Assembly: GCA_947260005.1 (NCBI GenBank)
Contig: CAMYOL010000007.1
Span: forward strand, 1 to 64,000
Length of the DNA stretch: 64,000 nucleotides
Direction: 5' to 3'
Source of the DNA: an uncultured Ectothiorhodospiraceae bacterium
Lineage (GTDB): Bacteria; Pseudomonadota; Gammaproteobacteria; UBA6429; Thiohalophilaceae
Shown here piece by piece: positions 7,082 to 33,320 of this stretch. Numbering within the stretch: the stretch's first letter is position 1; each line of letters starts with the position of its first letter. Both the position numbers and the translations under genes were made by a program. The notes below the pieces were generated by a model. The model saw only the letters and a program-made list of their open reading frames with translations. It made no database searches and was not told where the DNA came from.

Positions 7082-7795
7082 TCAGCTTAAATCGATGATT
7101 TGAGCAGCCAATTCACGCTCAAGTTGTTCTATTTGTTGAGGGTCCTCGGCAACGATGGCCATACTACCGTGCCCAGTTGGTACGATAACCCCCTGAAAAC
7201 GTTTATCTTTTAAGTGTGATCGAGACTCTATAAATTCCCCAGGCATAAATAACACCGTAATCGGACCGGAATCACTACCCACTATCACATGTGCCCCCTG
7301 GTTATTGCGAATCGGACAGGCTCCAGCATAATTAATCGTGCGTCCCGGCAGTGCTTTTAATTGATTACCATGATTCTTGAGCACCGAATTAACTTGTTGC
7401 ACGGATAAATTCTTATGATCTTGCAAATGATACAGCTCATCATTAATGTGCTGTAATACAACCTGTTCGAGAGTTTGCGAATCCACATCACCCAGGTTAA
7501 AGCTAAAAAAACTACTGATCACAACCGTGAAACTTAACAAAAATGCAGCCGCAGTAGCCATACCATATTTTTTACGTCGATTCTTTTCGGCGGCTAAACG
7601 CTGCCGCAATAAAATGCGCGAAGCCAGCCCCTCAGGAACCTCGACCTTGCTTGCTCGGTTCAGATCGGATTCAAATACCAGTAGATCGTTGGCAAAACGT
7701 GAACAATCAGCACAATCGTTTAGATGACTACGGATTGCATGATCCTGCGATCCAGGATCGGCCAGTAATTGATTTCGAATATCGATACAGTTCAT
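7082..7795 (-). CDS. DUF3379-type anti-sigma factor, membrane-bound
   Basis: 237 aa. The cytoplasmic N-terminus carries a zinc-type HxxxCxxC motif (RSHLNDCADCSRFA), as in zf-HC2 anti-sigma factors. A membrane helix lies near residues 78-100 (MATAAAFLLSFTVVISSFFS). The C-terminal part resembles DUF3379, with AGACPIRNNQGAHVIV and a VLFMPGE block. The start codon overlaps the ECF sigma stop codon (ATGA), so the two are translationally coupled. It would hold the sigma factor inactive until an extracytoplasmic signal arrives, plausibly metal stress given the divergent bufferin operon. Confidence 0.85.
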   Translation of the reverse strand: MNCIDIRNQLLADPGSQDHAIRSHLNDCADCSRFANDLLVFESDLNRASKVEVPEGLASRILLRQRLAAEKNRRKKYGMATAAAFLLSFTVVISSFFSFNLGDVDSQTLEQVVLQHINDELYHLQDHKNLSVQQVNSVLKNHGNQLKALPGRTINYAGACPIRNNQGAHVIVGSDSGPITVLFMPGEFIESRSHLKDKRFQGVIVPTGHGSMAIVAEDPQQIEQLERELAAQIIDLS

Positions 7796-8313
7796 TTTAC
7801 TAATCTCAATTTTGTCGGGTTATCGTCTAATAACAATTGACGTAATTGTTGGCGTGCGCGACATACCCGTGTCATCACTGCGCCTTTTTTAATTGCAATC
7901 ATTTCTCCAATTTCATCGCAGTTATAACCGCCAATCACTTGCAATAATAATGGCTCAAGATACTGAGGCTCGATCTTCTTTAAAGCCTGACGAAGGACCC
8001 ATGTCTCAACCTTGCCAAGTTGCCCATCATGAAAAAGATTCGGGTCTTCCTCAGTGACGTGATCGAGCGCGACCAGATCCATTCGTTGTTTACCTAAATG
8101 GCGTGACAACTCACGACGTAAAATAGTGAACAGCCAGGCCTTAGCGGATTCCAGCTTGTCCAGTTTGTCGAGCGATTTCCAGGCTCGCATATAGGTCTCC
8201 TGCACCAGGTCTTCCGCCAGTGGCTGCTCCTTACATAACCAGTAGGCATATCGGTAAAGATCTGATGAATAGGCATTGACCAGTGCCTCAAATGTCGATT
8301 CTGCTCGGCTCAT
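7792..8313 (-). CDS. ECF RNA polymerase sigma factor
   Basis: 173 aa with only regions 2 and 4, as in ECF sigma factors. Region 2 shows DLYRYAYWLC and LAEDLVQETYMRAWKSL. Region 4 shows LLLQVIGGYNCDEIGEMI then AIKKGAVMTRVCRARQQLR. It is followed by its DUF3379 anti-sigma factor with a 4-nt overlap, and divergent from the bufA-like precursor gene (177 bp between starts). It is the obvious candidate activator of that operon; the target promoter is not proven. Confidence 0.93.
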   Translation of the reverse strand: MSRAESTFEALVNAYSSDLYRYAYWLCKEQPLAEDLVQETYMRAWKSLDKLDKLESAKAWLFTILRRELSRHLGKQRMDLVALDHVTEEDPNLFHDGQLGKVETWVLRQALKKIEPQYLEPLLLQVIGGYNCDEIGEMIAIKKGAVMTRVCRARQQLRQLLLDDNPTKLRLVK

Positions 8314-8342
8314 ATATAAATAGACCCTGAATTTCTACAAAT

Positions 8343-8376
8343 GCTTACCAAAAAAATAATTTATTTTTTTGTAAGC
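8343..8376. repeat. AT-rich inverted repeat in the sigma factor/bufferin divergent region
   Basis: Left arm GCTTACC + A7 + TAA (8343-8359) and right arm TTA + T7 + GTAAGC (8361-8376) are complementary except for one extra C. It sits 30 bp upstream of the ECF sigma start and 114 bp upstream of the precursor start. It could be a regulator-binding palindrome or a hairpin in the sigma leader. Its position upstream of both genes argues against a terminator. Confidence 0.6.
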
Positions 8377-8403
8377 TTTTCCTTGTTTGGCCGGTCATCT
8401 CTA

Positions 8404-8430
8404 GTAACTGTGCTGCATGCTTGATTCGCT
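8404..8430 (+). promoter_or_regulatory. Possible ECF-type promoter of the bufferin operon
   Basis: GTAACT (8404-8409), a 17-nt spacer and CGCT (8427-8430) resemble the bipartite GTAAC/CG-rich elements used by several ECF sigma factors. It lies about 60 bp upstream of the precursor start. It is a weak match chosen by eye, and other arrangements in this region are possible. Confidence 0.25.
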
Positions 8431-8489
8431 CAAATATGCAATTCAGTCAAATTGTAAATTTACCCCCTGTTCTAATGGAGGACAACATT

Positions 8490-8762
8490 ATGCAAAAGAA
8501 ATCGACTAAGAATATGGCCCTGATCAGCGCAATCGCCCTTGGTGTCGGACTTGCCGCTCAGGCACAAGCGGCCAAACCAAAGTGGGAAGGTTATGAAAAG
8601 TGCGCCGGGATTGTGAAAAAAGGAATGAATTCCTGTGGTACCAGTAAACACAATTGTGCTGGCCAGGCTACGAGCAATAATGATCCAGAAGAATGGATCT
8701 ATTTGCCAAAAGGAACCTGCGATAAAATCACGGGTTCTACTCTGAAGAAAAAGGCTAGCTAA
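8490..8762 (+). CDS. Bufferin-type RiPP precursor (DUF2282, BufA1-like)
   Basis: 90 aa from the ATG at 8490, preceded by GGAGG with 8-nt spacing; the frame is open further upstream but those starts lack a ribosome site. Residues 1-28 form a Sec signal peptide ([12 protein letters not shown]... ending AQAQA). The mature part has four cysteines in the order KCAG, NSCG, HNCAGQ, GTCDKI, matching the DUF2282 spacing with a conserved LPKGTC block. In the known family, cysteines are modified by an MNIO enzyme and the exported peptide sequesters copper. The modifying enzyme gene follows at once. The metal here is inferred. Confidence 0.88.
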
Positions 8763-8764
8763 AA

Positions 8765-9625
8765 TTGACCTTAGCTGAGCCTTCTAAAATGATCACACGC
8801 GATCCGATCTCAGGAGTTGGGATCGGGTTGCGTGCTGAACACTATGAATACGTAAAACGTGAAAGGCCATCAATTCCCTGGTTTGAAGTCTTAATCGATA
8901 ACTACCTTGGACATGGTGGGCAAATACAACGACACCTGCAAGACTTCAGTGAACTATACCCGCTCACATTTCATGGCGTCGGTATGTCATTAGGATCGTG
9001 TGATCCATTGAATAAAACCTATCTTGACCTGTTAAAACAGGCTATACAAACCTATCAACCGGTTTTGGTCTCCGACCATTTATGCTGGACTGGATTCCAG
9101 CATGAATACGTTCATGATCTTTTACCCATGCCTTACACGGAAGAAGCAGCACATCATGTTGCCGACAGAATTAAACAGGCCCAGGATTATTTAGGCACTC
9201 AAATCCTGCTAGAAAATGTCTCGAGTTATATGCAATATCAAATATCGGACATGTCGGAAGCCGAATTTGTCGCCTATGTGTGCGTGCTCGCTGACTGTCA
9301 TTTACTCTTGGATATTAATAATATCTATGTCAGCGCCTTTAACCATCGATTTGATGCAAATGAATATCTAAGTTTGATGCCGACTGATCGGATTCAGGAA
9401 TTTCACCTGGCAGGCTATGAGGATCAGGATGATCATTTACTGGATACACATGGTCAGGCTATTCATCCCCCGGTTTGGGAGTTATTTAAGGATGCGATAA
9501 AGCGATTTGGTGCTCGGCCTACTTTAATAGAGTGGGACAATAACGTTCCCGAGTTTTCTGTGTTACAACAAGAAGCCGGTAAGGCCGAACTCATTCTCGA
9601 CCAGGAACAACATTATGCTGCCTGA
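8765..9625 (+). CDS. MNIO (DUF692) multinuclear iron peptide-modifying enzyme, BufB-like
   Basis: 286 aa TIM-barrel enzyme of the DUF692 family, which binds two or three iron ions and oxidatively modifies cysteines of precursor peptides. Likely metal ligands are visible in order: FHGVGMSLG, SDHLCW, ENVSSYM, DINNIYVSA, HLAGYED, DTHGQ and LIEWDNN. The gene starts 2 nt after the precursor stop from TTG (8765); an ATG at 8789 lacks a ribosome site, so the start is uncertain. It overlaps the DUF2063 gene by 11 nt. Substrate assignment to the adjacent precursor rests on synteny. Confidence 0.92.
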   Translation: MTLAEPSKMITRDPISGVGIGLRAEHYEYVKRERPSIPWFEVLIDNYLGHGGQIQRHLQDFSELYPLTFHGVGMSLGSCDPLNKTYLDLLKQAIQTYQPVLVSDHLCWTGFQHEYVHDLLPMPYTEEAAHHVADRIKQAQDYLGTQILLENVSSYMQYQISDMSEAEFVAYVCVLADCHLLLDINNIYVSAFNHRFDANEYLSLMPTDRIQEFHLAGYEDQDDHLLDTHGQAIHPPVWELFKDAIKRFGARPTLIEWDNNVPEFSVLQQEAGKAELILDQEQHYAA

Positions 9626-10352
9626 ACTACAAAAACAATTTATGAATGGTCTGTTACGAAAAGACGCCCTCATACTCAAGCAACTCGACTCCCAGATACG
9701 CGATAGTCAGCAACAACTCAATATTTACCGTAACAGTTACCGGGGGGGGCTTCTCAAAGCGATGAAGGATATTTATCCCGTCACCGAACAATTGCTGGGT
9801 GAAACATTCTTTGAAGCCATGTGTCTGCGTTATATAGAACAAACCCCCTGCCAGTCATTCGATATTAATCAATATGGGGCTAATTTTTCTAAATTTACCG
9901 ATGCATTTAGCCCGGTCAAAGCACTCATCTACCTGCCCGATGTCATTCGCCTGGAATGGGCATGGCATCACGCCTATCAGGCAACCGAACCACCAGAACA
10001 TGACTTTTCGCCATTACTCAATTTTGATGAGACACAACTAGCTTCGCTCTATTTTTCACTGCAACCCTCAATGACATTGCTCGCTTCTCCTTATCCCGTT
10101 GATCTTATCTGGTCTGCTAATCAGATCACCGAGGGGGAGTCTGTTAATTTAGACGCTGGACCTCACCATCTGGTTATTTGGCGAACTGGCTTAAATTCGC
10201 ATATCGACACCGTAGACCTCGAGTTTTTTAACTTTTTGATCTTTATTCAGAATCACCACACACTCGGTGTCATACAGGAGAATGATCCTCAGTTTGAAGA
10301 GCATCTGGCAATCGGCCTGCAACGAGGATATTTTTCTCACTACCACTTCTAG
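9615..10352 (+). CDS. DUF2063 partner protein of MNIO enzyme, BufC-like
   Basis: 245 aa. The N-terminal part has the DUF2063 pattern YRNSYRGGLLKAMKDIYPVTEQLLGETFFEAM, containing the family-typical LLGExFF helix, followed by a second domain rich in strands. In known MNIO systems this partner binds the precursor leader and presents it to the enzyme. The ATG lies inside the end of the bufB-like gene (11-nt overlap), indicating translational coupling. The operon appears to end here; no DoxX gene follows, unlike some bufferin operons. Confidence 0.88.
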   Translation: MLPELQKQFMNGLLRKDALILKQLDSQIRDSQQQLNIYRNSYRGGLLKAMKDIYPVTEQLLGETFFEAMCLRYIEQTPCQSFDINQYGANFSKFTDAFSPVKALIYLPDVIRLEWAWHHAYQATEPPEHDFSPLLNFDETQLASLYFSLQPSMTLLASPYPVDLIWSANQITEGESVNLDAGPHHLVIWRTGLNSHIDTVDLEFFNFLIFIQNHHTLGVIQENDPQFEEHLAIGLQRGYFSHYHF

Positions 10353-10443: not shown

Positions 10444-10548
10444 ATGCACGCAGAAGATAAACAAATAGGTCAACGTGTTGGTTATACCGTACTAGTCATT
10501 ATCGCTGTCATGCTTGGACTTATTATTGCCGCCAATATAATTGGCTAA
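10444..10548 (+). CDS. 34-aa single-span membrane microprotein, FNR-controlled
   Basis: The short frame begins with ATG preceded by GAGGAGG (6-8 nt upstream). It encodes a charged N-terminus (MHAEDKQIGQRVGY) and one hydrophobic helix (TVLVIIAVMLGLIIAANIIG, residues 15-34) ending at TAA. Good ribosome site, membrane helix and a perfect FNR box 60 bp upstream together argue it is real. Function is unknown; small subunits or assembly factors of respiratory complexes are one possibility. It lies 91 bp behind the bufC-like gene but has its own promoter signals. Confidence 0.72.
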   Translation: MHAEDKQIGQRVGYTVLVIIAVMLGLIIAANIIG

Positions 10549-10968: not shown

Positions 10969-11308
10969 TTGCAATATCCTTGCATACGCCCATGGGCTTA
11001 TCGTAACACTGCTTTAAATTAAGTATATCTATTTATCAATAATTAACTGTTATTCTAACTCATTGATCTCAAAAAGTAATTAGTCCCAACCCGCCAAATA
11101 TCTATAAAAACCGACCGCCTATCTCGCTATTACCGGAACACTTCACTATTTATAACAAATTTTTACAATTAGCCGACTCTCTTGCCACGAAAATCAATTA
11201 ATTAGCATCTCGACAATATCGAATATTTTACATAAATGACCTAATTTATCCATTTACCTGCTGTTCCTTAATTTAGAGATTATACTTAAGAACGAAGGGC
11301 CACGTAAT
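10969..11308. other. Non-coding stretch upstream of PilZ gene
   Basis: About 340 bp of AT-rich sequence between the divergent PilZ gene and the frameshifted gene starting at 11309. I see no coding frame with good features, no RNA gene and no clear repeat. It presumably holds the promoters of both flanking genes. Confidence 0.5.
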
Positions 11309-26252: not shown

Positions 26253-26816
26253 ATGCCTACTCTATACGAAATGCTGGTCTCTCCGTGGCCCTGGTATGTC
26301 AGTGGACCGATTATTGGATTGATGGTCCCGCTTTTAATCCTAATTGGAAATCGCTCCTTTGGTATCTCCCAAAATCTCGAACATATCTGTGCGATGGCCA
26401 AACCATCGGTAATTAGTATCAAACTTTTCAATTATGACTGGCGTACTTCACGTTGGAGCATCGTTTTTGCAGTCGGCGTGATGCTAGGCGGCCTGCTTGC
26501 CGGGGTTATCTTTGCCAATCCGGAACCTATCCAACTCAGCCAGGCAACCTTAGACATGCTCGCGCAGCGAAACATCGCCGCCCCTAGCCAATTTAATCCA
26601 CCTGAAATTTTCACATTAAATTTTCAAAACAGCATATTGTTATTAACAAGTGGTTTATTAATTGGCTTCGGTACTCGCTACGCAGCAGGTTGTACCTCAG
26701 GTCACGCCATCACGGGTATTTCCACCTTGCAGATTCAATCCGTCTACGCCGTAATCGGCATCTTTGCCGGTGGTCTGATAGCCGCGAATTATATTACCCC
26801 AATCGTTGGAGTATAA
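26253..26816 (+). CDS. YeeE/YedE-type sulfur transport protein, N-half
   Basis: 187 aa with four hydrophobic helices. The DUF395/YeeE signature FGTRYAAGCTSGHAITGIS near residue 150 holds the conserved cysteine used in thiosulfate uptake by the YeeE family. It forms a split pair with the next gene, the two being 3 nt apart (PmpA/PmpB-like). In sulfur oxidisers these pairs are linked to movement of thiosulfate or sulfane sulfur. Confidence 0.88.
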   Translation: MPTLYEMLVSPWPWYVSGPIIGLMVPLLILIGNRSFGISQNLEHICAMAKPSVISIKLFNYDWRTSRWSIVFAVGVMLGGLLAGVIFANPEPIQLSQATLDMLAQRNIAAPSQFNPPEIFTLNFQNSILLLTSGLLIGFGTRYAAGCTSGHAITGISTLQIQSVYAVIGIFAGGLIAANYITPIVGV

Positions 26817-26819
26817 AGA

Positions 26820-27236
26820 ATGAAAAAATATCTACCGTATCTGGTGCTTGGCAATCTATTTGGTTATGTATTAATAAAATCTGAGGTTGCATCCTGGTAT
26901 CGAATCCAGGAAATGTTTCATTTTCAGAACTTTCATATGTTCGGCATCATCATCTCAGCGATCATCACCGCTTTCATTGGTGTAACGATCTTAAAGCGGT
27001 TTACCGGTAAGGCTTCTCTCGAAGGCACTAGTATTTGTATTCCGGAAAAGAAACCGGGCCGCACGAATTATCCGCTGGGAGGTTTTATATTTGGTATCGG
27101 TTGGGGAATCATTGGCTTATGTCCAGGACCTATCTTCGCATTAATGGGTACGGGTTCAATTTCTGCTGTGTTATTACTCATAGGTTCACTATTAGGTACG
27201 CTAGTCTACGGCATGTCTAAAGAACGTTTACCATAA
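26820..27236 (+). CDS. YeeE/YedE-type sulfur transport protein, C-half
   Basis: 138 aa with four hydrophobic helices. The second YeeE signature is GIGWGIIGLCPGPIFALMGTG near residue 100, with its conserved cysteine. It starts 3 nt after the preceding YeeE gene stop, so both subunits are made together. The start is an ATG (MKKYLPYLVLGNLFGY). Confidence 0.88.
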   Translation: MKKYLPYLVLGNLFGYVLIKSEVASWYRIQEMFHFQNFHMFGIIISAIITAFIGVTILKRFTGKASLEGTSICIPEKKPGRTNYPLGGFIFGIGWGIIGLCPGPIFALMGTGSISAVLLLIGSLLGTLVYGMSKERLP

Positions 27237-32196: not shown

Positions 32197-32658
32197 TCAG
32201 TGATGGTGGTGGTGTTGATGCGTAGAGTGATCGTCCAATGTAGCTTCTTTAATTTGAGCTTTTAATGTGATTTGCTTTTTATCGGCCGTTATCATCAAGG
32301 TCACCGAATCGCCTCGGGCTAATTTACGCTTTGGATTAATCAACATCAAATGCAGACCACCCGGTTTAAATATTGTTTCTCCGTTTGCTGGCAACGCTAA
32401 ACTTTTTTGTTCGACCATACGCGCCATTCCGTCTTTGGTTTCGGTACGATGCATTTCGACATTTTTAAAATCGGGGGAACTCACTGCGGTTATATTTATA
32501 TCTTTATCCGTCGTATTTTTAAGCGTCATGTAGCCTGCCATAACACGAGCAACCGGAGGCGCCTCGGGCACCCACGCATTCGAAATAACGACATCAGCCC
32601 CTGCGTGGACAATAAAACTGAGCGAGATAAAACCAATTGCTACTAGCGTTTTTAACAT
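32197..32658 (-). CDS. Periplasmic copper chaperone PCuAC with poly-His tail
   Basis: 153 aa with a signal peptide (MLKTLVAIGFISLSFIVHAGA). The copper-binding motif of the PCuAC family is seen as MAGYMTLKN, VEMHRTE, MARM and HLMLINPKR. The protein ends in STHQHHHHH, an added metal-binding tail. PCuAC delivers Cu(I) to the CuA or CuB site of cytochrome oxidase, working with SCO, whose gene is 8 nt upstream. Confidence 0.92.
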   Translation of the reverse strand: MLKTLVAIGFISLSFIVHAGADVVISNAWVPEAPPVARVMAGYMTLKNTTDKDINITAVSSPDFKNVEMHRTETKDGMARMVEQKSLALPANGETIFKPGGLHLMLINPKRKLARGDSVTLMITADKKQITLKAQIKEATLDDHSTHQHHHHH

Positions 32659-32666
32659 GATATTAA

Positions 32667-33320
32667 TTAACCTGGGTGATAGTCTCGAATCGCGGTAAAC
32701 GTTTTTACAATTTCATTTACCTGATGCGGGCTGGTAAACACGCCCCTGAAATAACCTTGTGGATCAATCAAAACAATTTGTGCGCTGTGATTAACCGTAT
32801 AATCGTTTTCATTTTCCCCATCTTCATAACCATACAATGCCCCGACCTGCACGGTGAGGATATCAATAAAATTATGCTTGCCAGTAATGGCAATGAAGTC
32901 AGGATGATAATATTGTACGTAGTTCTTTAATATCGCCGGAGTATCACGATCGGGATCGACCGAAACGAATACCAATTGAGGCTCAGGTGATTGTTTGGCG
33001 GACTCCGGCAGCTTGGCCCAAACCGATTTCATTACTAACAGGGTCGTCGGACACACGTCGGGGCAATGGGTAAAACCAAAAAATAAAAAACTCCATTTAC
33101 CCTTGAATTGATCTTCACTAAAAGGCTGATTGTTGTGATCCTTCAGCTGAATACCAACCACGGGACGACCTTCCGGGATATACGTATTCGCAATAGCAAC
33201 CGGTAAAGCTTGTCGGGGTTTAATGACCGTAACCCAAACGACAGCGGCAATTAATGAGATAACGGTAACGATGATGGCGATAGCCAAAAATGGACTATTC
33301 TTTTCTGTGTCACTAGTCAT
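32667..33320 (-). CDS. SCO1/SenC family copper chaperone
   Basis: 217 aa. A membrane anchor near residues 12-32 is followed by a thioredoxin-like domain. The copper ligands are FGFTHCPDVCPTTLL (CxxxC) and the distal histidine in NDYTVNHSAQIVLIDP. It assists cytochrome oxidase copper-site assembly and is probably in one transcript with PCuAC and psd. Confidence 0.94.
   Translation of the reverse strand: MTSDTEKNSPFLAIAIIVTVISLIAAVVWVTVIKPRQALPVAIANTYIPEGRPVVGIQLKDHNNQPFSEDQFKGKWSFLFFGFTHCPDVCPTTLLVMKSVWAKLPESAKQSPEPQLVFVSVDPDRDTPAILKNYVQYYHPDFIAITGKHNFIDILTVQVGALYGYEDGENENDYTVNHSAQIVLIDPQGYFRGVFTSPHQVNEIVKTFTAIRDYHPG

Follow-up and report, generated by a model that had tools for sequence, protein, structure and literature searches.

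The closest described systems are the bufferin and captophorin operons and their regulators. In Caulobacter vibrioides, the sigma factor sigma-F and its regulator NrsF control genes coding for DUF2282, DUF692, DUF2063, and DoxX proteins (CC3254-3257 and CC2907-2905), and conserved, probably periplasmic cysteines of NrsF affect how these genes are controlled (PMC3511200). The part of PMC12452194 that bears on regulation names sigma factors and NrsF for Buf1, not Buf2, clusters, and the captophorins fontiphorin, oxazolin, and gonophorin have been described together with three precursor groups, viz., DUF2282, Lys-Cys, and Cys-Lys (PMC13097082). Here, we describe positions 7082-10352 of a 64,000-nucleotide stretch, the whole of which we call the window, from an uncultured Ectothiorhodospiraceae bacterium of the Gammaproteobacteria (contig CAMYOL010000007.1 of assembly GCA_947260005.1, a genome of 3.7 Mb in 81 contigs). 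This region is a Buf1-type bufferin operon (bufABC) divergent from a gene pair coding for an extracytoplasmic function (ECF) sigma factor and a DUF3379 protein, the latter a probable anti-sigma factor to judge from its position, architecture, and overlap with the sigma gene. Our reading, to which we give a probability of roughly two in three, is that this captophorin operon stands under its own ECF sigma factor, which DUF3379 would free upon periplasmic copper or thiol-reactive stress. Bufferins are already known as a kind of peptide, and what is new is the regulator pair with its promoter signal, both apparently undescribed: the open-licence literature yielded no mention of DUF3379, and its papers on bufferins and MNIO enzymes, on DUF2282, DUF692, and sigma factors, and on ECF factors and copper yielded no description of the sigma/DUF3379 pair.

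The gene content was established by profile searches (Table 1). The bufA product scores 78.5 bits against the DUF2282 model of Pfam (cut-off 22.4), the bufB product 345 bits against MbnB_TglH_ChrH of Pfam and 356.1 bits against the NCBIfam 'bufferin maturase' equivalog (cut-off 310), and the bufC product 78.2 bits against DUF2063 (cut-off 27.2), the last remaining under the cut-off of the NCBIfam HvfC model with 34.5 of 142 bits. The conserved His, Asp, Asn, and Glu motifs of BufB align with those of the solved MNIO 3BWW. The BufA cysteines, at positions 38, 49, 56, and 77, are invariant in all six aligned proteins, and the score against the BufA2 model of Buf2 precursors (NF050166) falls short of the cut-off at 24.9 of 60 bits, there being four cysteines versus six or twelve; by its Pfam match and cysteine number, the precursor classifies as Buf1 and not Buf2. 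Its length presumes the ATG at 8490, most likely the true start because it stands after a GGAGG, the list of open reading frames having opened bufA at the TTG at 8421. Read by eye, the BufA N-terminus is signal-peptide-like, with a basic start, a hydrophobic stretch, and an Ala-Gln-Ala run; an AlphaFold2 model from six sequences was set aside at a predicted local distance difference test (pLDDT) score of 50. A run of eight G, a kind of sequence that can cause slippage, stands at 9742-9749 (+) within bufC, whose assembled frame is intact.

The genes of the operon are tightly packed, with a gap of 2 nucleotides between bufA and bufB and an overlap of 11 between bufB and bufC, and the sigma and DUF3379 genes overlap by 4. 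The sigma factor matches Sigma70_r2 and Sigma70_r4_2 in Pfam with 65.3 and 29.8 bits, its top NCBIfam model, PRK12517, reaching 186.7 bits under a cut-off of 197; ECF28 is a group name for such sigma factors, and as a whole word it occurred in the literature searched in an unrelated paper only. The DUF3379 product scores 159.4 bits over residues 1-232, against a gathering cut-off of 33.2. No DoxX gene was found after bufC in the frames profile-scanned to about position 11000 or by eye to 13600, and the notion that DoxX had been relocated elsewhere was dropped, the DoxX protein of locus L127 (genome G003) having no match in the window's genome or 11 others. The copper chaperones PCuAC (32197-32658) and SCO1/SenC (32667-33320) lie within the window. 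An earlier note, made from the letters alone, had thus read the locus correctly in its main features, viz., a compact bufferin operon divergent from an ECF sigma factor with a zinc-motif anti-sigma partner, the missing DoxX-like fourth gene, and the two chaperones. The profile check it had proposed placed DUF2282 and DUF2063 above their Pfam cut-offs and the DUF692/MNIO enzyme above that of the NCBIfam maturase, and its anti-sigma assignment agrees with the PF11859 match, the overlap with the sigma gene, and the cysteine-histidine set described below.

The start codons of the sigma factor and bufA genes are 176 bases apart, and each strand of the interval carries one site, the two agreeing in letters and spacing. 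Their consensus, TGTAAG-N17-GGTCT, takes its letters from the window together with the 20 loci fetched first, and a site's score is the number of its 11 letters that match. At 25 of 53 loci, the window counted and L053, at a contig edge, left out of all such cis counts, the sigma gene has a site of at least 10/11 facing it, whereas 0.01 would be expected in dinucleotide shuffles; in most of the loci listed it begins 50-56 bases upstream of the sigma start codon. On the divergent side, a site faces the captophorin operon in 10 of 14 loci (window counted) and a thioredoxin-like gene in both loci having one, versus 1 of the 37 loci with neither kind of gene (p 8e-7 for 10/14 against 1/37). Among loci not used for the letters, the sigma gene has a site in 13 of 33, and the divergent site is present in three of six captophorin loci versus none of 27, these sets being held out with respect to the letters alone, as the choice of a 17-base spacer and a 10-letter threshold came after all loci had been scored. 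DUF2282, MNIO, or DUF2063 genes are present in the stretch examined at 19 of the 59 DUF3379 loci (the window and 58 fetched).

In DUF3379-bearing genomes, captophorin operons frequently lie apart from the sigma gene, and sites of the same type precede some of these in trans. We compared up to 1000 bases upstream of MNIO genes in genomes having DUF3379 and genomes where it was not found, and a site of at least 10/11 pointing toward the operon was present in 12/59 and 0/65 cases, respectively (Fisher p 7e-5), or 10/41 and 0/48 when counted by genome. The controls gave 2/59 and 0/65 on the opposite strand and 1/59 and 2/65 with a reversed consensus, and removal of three operons that are close to a sigma locus or possibly split off from one (L220, L221, L263) left 10/56 versus 0/65 (p 3e-4). 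Letters, spacer, and threshold were fixed beforehand, and the 1000-base limit was set afterwards; before it, the count stood at 14/60 regions, with 3/60 on the opposite strand and 1/60 for the reversed consensus. The 58 genomes searched had at most four MNIO matches apiece. The positive set comprises 59 of 83 MNIO matches, omitting 14 next to a sigma locus, two from G001, which gave no DUF3379 match, and eight that are partial, weak, or at a contig edge; the negative set comprises 65 of 68 (three partial ones omitted), from 69 of 71 genomes without a DUF3379 match. Two regions of the first count are not in the positive set, L262 (a DUF2282 stretch lacking MNIO) and L231 (of G001, its operon entered in the negative set as L289), and the site of L259 lies just beyond the 1000-base limit. 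Behind 9 of the 12 sites, at a distance of 16-188 bases for the start as called (true starts may lie farther on), a precursor frame can be recognized and was classed by eye: Buf1 precursors at L233, L256, and L263, Buf2-like CKG peptides at L209, L212, and L215, and EGKCG peptides at L222, L244, and L249. Control of the operon by the sigma/DUF3379 pair, which the earlier note had guessed from position, is in this way supported by the two-way site, its recurrence at other loci in the promoter comparison that the note had proposed, and the comparison of genomes.

Table 1. Features of the bufferin locus and its probable regulators (window positions)
Feature	Position	Strand	Support
DUF3379 protein, probable anti-sigma factor, 237 aa	7082..7795	-	PF11859 1.2e-46
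ECF sigma factor, 173 aa	7792..8313	-	Sigma70_r2 4.3e-18, Sigma70_r4_2 4.7e-7
Predicted ECF promoter toward sigma gene, GGTAAG-N17-GGTCT	8322..8349	-	10/11 consensus letters
Predicted ECF promoter toward bufA, TGTAAG-N17-GGTCA	8370..8397	+	10/11 consensus letters
bufA, Buf1/DUF2282 precursor, 90 aa (most likely start)	8490..8762	+	PF10048 3.7e-22
bufB, MNIO (DUF692) bufferin maturase, 286 aa, TTG start	8765..9625	+	NF050167, PF05114
bufC, DUF2063 partner protein, 245 aa	9615..10352	+	PF09836 5.9e-22

Of 369 genomes of the class, 48 gave a DUF3379 match at E ≤1e-10, as against none of the 14 controls; Tahibacter aquaticus DSM 21667 (L171) is a cultured bearer of the family. The window protein has an N-terminal C3-H24-C28-C31 set, one hydrophobic stretch at about residues 77-98 (by eye), and a C-terminal domain at about 109-235 that is presumably periplasmic. 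Zinc-binding anti-sigma (ZAS) domains are defined by a Cys plus HxxxCxxC at the N-terminus, a pattern that C3, H24, C28, and C31 satisfy, and the ZAS-like domain of DUF3379 would bind zinc and sequester the sigma factor. The set is complete in 45 of 52 aligned members, while H116, C160, and H169, all C-terminal of the hydrophobic stretch, are kept in 46; in the captophorin-linked members aligned, the figures are 16/18 and 18/18, respectively. Since six members keep this H-C-H set having lost the ZAS residues, five keep the ZAS set with an incomplete H-C-H, and one has neither (L058 and L059 possibly being misaligned at the N-terminus), the two sets are separable. No NrsF (DUF1109) match was found in the protein, Pfam searches up to E 0.1 giving DUF3379 and a weak, sub-cut-off DUF460 only.

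An AlphaFold2 model of the DUF3379 protein (mean pLDDT 85.6, predicted template modelling score 0.56) has helices to about residue 100 followed by an alpha/beta domain, and fold searches with the whole model test mainly residues 117-235 and barely the N-terminal domain. In VIA, RseB or MucB takes seven of the top eight rows, mainly with its C-terminal domain (Z 5.6-8.0, root-mean-square deviation 3.0-3.8, 85-104 residues), the first row being a different protein, 1vr8, tied at Z 8.4, and a Z under 8 may mean a common arrangement only; in Foldseek, the top six rows are RseB or MucB (probability 0.97-1.00, E 3e-3 to 3e-2, none under 1e-3). A profile search of the sequences of solved structures returned RsiW (E 0.16) and an unrelated chain only. 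Sequence profiles gave no significant sign of homology to RseB, hhalign giving in one comparison a probability of 1.6 and E 0.03 over 28 columns, with six other families at 0.05-0.37, and we therefore claim a resemblance of the C-terminal domain to that of RseB/MucB in predicted fold alone. C160 and H169 lie on neighbouring strands of the model, where together with H116 they could form a metal site. The window's genome also codes for a separate RseB-type protein (PF17188).

These features bear on the nature of the signal. The sigma factor might control bufABC in response to something other than copper, with DUF3379 sensing oxidized or misfolded envelope material or the redox state of its ZAS residues, and bufferins forming part of a general envelope thiol-stress response. 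The likeness to RseB/MucB speaks for this, as do the sites of the same type facing thioredoxin-like genes at L048 and L052 (both 11/11, the latter a Thioredoxin match), a TlpA-like gene (by eye) at L210, and DoxX genes in G003 (L127) and G022 (L151). Such an account is nonetheless rather unlikely, because the six members with H-C-H and no ZAS residues indicate that redox sensing by the ZAS set is not essential to the family, and a cysteine-peptide precursor stands behind 9 of the 12 trans sites.

In L043 and L045, the sigma pair adjoins CheX and PilZ genes as in the window, with the buf genes absent (L045 is also near ppk), and this shared neighbourhood points to a resident regulator beside which the buf cassette was either acquired or lost. 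G001, from the same genus as the window's genome, yielded no DUF3379; downstream of its bufABC, on the same strand, lie another kind of ECF sigma gene and then the gene of a possible anti-sigma factor, a 203-residue protein without a Pfam match (L179, 5501-8602). In G024 and G029 (L044, L046), the sigma/DUF3379 pair faces DUF2282 and DoxX genes with good sites, and neither MNIO nor DUF2063 was found on searching these drafts (92 and 99% complete); G013, of their genus (84% complete, no DUF3379 found), likewise has no MNIO or DUF2063 match. The four-cysteine DUF2282 proteins of G024 and G029 may work unmodified. In G022, two sites of the same type stand in L180 (5430-6510) before a secreted DGKCG-repeat peptide (10/11) and a DoxX gene, and searches of this genome for MNIO, DUF2282, and DUF2063 found none. 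The repeated presence of thioredoxin-like proteins next to DUF3379 or behind its site type (L048 4091-4564, L052 3977-4414, L042 5128-5544, and L210, the last by eye) suggests that the same response includes a thiol-disulphide step.

The three drafts in which the maturation genes were not found would fit a precursor that works unmodified or for another metal, with a dispensable MNIO step; this is improbable for the window, where bufB and bufC are intact directly downstream of bufA, as at several linked loci. That the sigma pair is a mere neighbour of a bufABC read from another promoter, with sites there by chance, would agree with L043, L045, and the alternative ECF pair of G001 and is very improbable given the divergent sites at 10/14 versus 1/37 loci and the trans sites at 12/59 versus 0/65.

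Regulation of bufABC by the sigma factor and its release by DUF3379 would proceed as follows. At rest, the sigma factor would be kept at the inner membrane by the ZAS-like N-terminal domain of the membrane protein DUF3379. A surplus of copper in the periplasm, or a thiol-reactive condition accompanying it, would act on the RseB-like domain there, with H116/C160/H169 as the most likely target, and would release the sigma factor. RNA polymerase with the freed sigma factor would use TGTAAG-N17-GGTCT in both directions, raising the levels of sigma and anti-sigma factors and of bufABC. BufB, with BufC, would then turn the central cysteine pair of BufA into thiooxazoles by oxidation, and the peptide would be exported by Sec to serve as a periplasmic copper buffer. 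MNIO chemistry would lower the mass by about 4 Da for each modified cysteine rather than each pair, and the outer disulphide would lower it by 2 Da.

Several results weigh against this picture. Four of the 14 divergent captophorin loci have no good site (L042 and L086 with 8, L107 with 9, and L121 with 7 of 11 letters), and in L042 and L086 the ZAS residues are missing as well. Downstream of three of the 12 trans sites (L220, L251, L253), no precursor is recognizable, the site of L253 being directly upstream of the MNIO gene itself. No site was found at 47 of the 59 trans operons, and other controls must therefore exist; among them is the second MNIO operon of the window's genome (L001, contig C34), in which an MNIO and a DUF2063 gene accompany what by eye are an EGKCG precursor and, in fourth place, a DoxX-like gene, with nothing reaching 10/11 upstream. 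Related genomes are non-independent samples, and those with and without DUF3379 also differ in kinship. Across the window's genome, the site alone occurs at chance level (4 matches versus 3 control matches); a genome-wide regulon defined by it was rejected, and we therefore claim no wider regulon for this organism. Lastly, a related copper-binding cluster of Microbulbifer coding for a ribosomally synthesized and post-translationally modified peptide was not copper-induced and gave little protection (PMC12538549).

More broadly, DUF3379/ECF pairs may be dedicated to all three captophorin classes across Gammaproteobacteria, acting in cis and trans via TGTAAG-N17-GGTCT, with DUF3379 as a one-protein sensor combining a ZAS-type anti-sigma domain with an RseB-like periplasmic domain that carries an H-C-H metal site, a solution to the task of NrsF reached independently; we advance this tentatively, as a proposal that could nearly as well hold as fail. 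A sigma/anti-sigma pair with a concrete promoter sequence would provide DUF3379, a domain of unknown function, with a role and would mean that ECF control of bufferins has come about with two or more dissimilar anti-sigma proteins. Attention is also drawn to lineages in which regulator and precursor are retained and no MNIO was found.

Among the neighbouring genes, bufC is followed by a 34-residue frame without a Pfam match (10444-10548, +) and then by the PilZ gene on the opposite strand; the frame has a single hydrophobic stretch, and a similar one is directly divergent from the sigma gene in L043, where the buf genes are absent. Farther along, an adjoining pair of sulphur-transport-type membrane proteins (Sulf_transp and DUF6691) is encoded at 26253-27236 (+).

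Set beside RseA/RseB and MucA/MucB of the sigma-E pathway, DUF3379 has a C-terminal domain whose predicted fold resembles that of the RseB/MucB C-terminal domain, and it differs in being one protein rather than two, without the large RseB domain. With the captophorins, the locus shares the same enzyme pair, and each precursor group is seen by eye behind the site in some genome, while the relevant part of PMC13097082 mentions regulators in general terms only. With the Buf1 bufferins, it shares the bufABC order, the four cysteines, and an MNIO above the curated cut-off (PMC12452194, NF050167), and it differs from those of PMC12452194 in having DUF3379 as regulator and in its operon lacking DoxX, which is frequent but not obligate there. 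The literature on ECF factors and copper also includes RpoQ/gig of Cupriavidus. As in the sigma-F/NrsF system of Caulobacter, an ECF sigma factor and a membrane-bound negative regulator with conserved, probably periplasmic cysteines would be set over DUF2282-DUF692-DUF2063 genes. NrsF is described with six putative membrane segments and two conserved cysteines, in contrast to the single hydrophobic stretch, ZAS-like set, and H-C-H residues of DUF3379; the promoter is GTAACC-N16-CGAA versus TGTAAG-N17-GGTCT here; and CC3257 is a DoxX protein, with no counterpart in the window operon (PMC3511200). By analogy, sigma-F/NrsF offers a clear precedent for the wiring proposed here.

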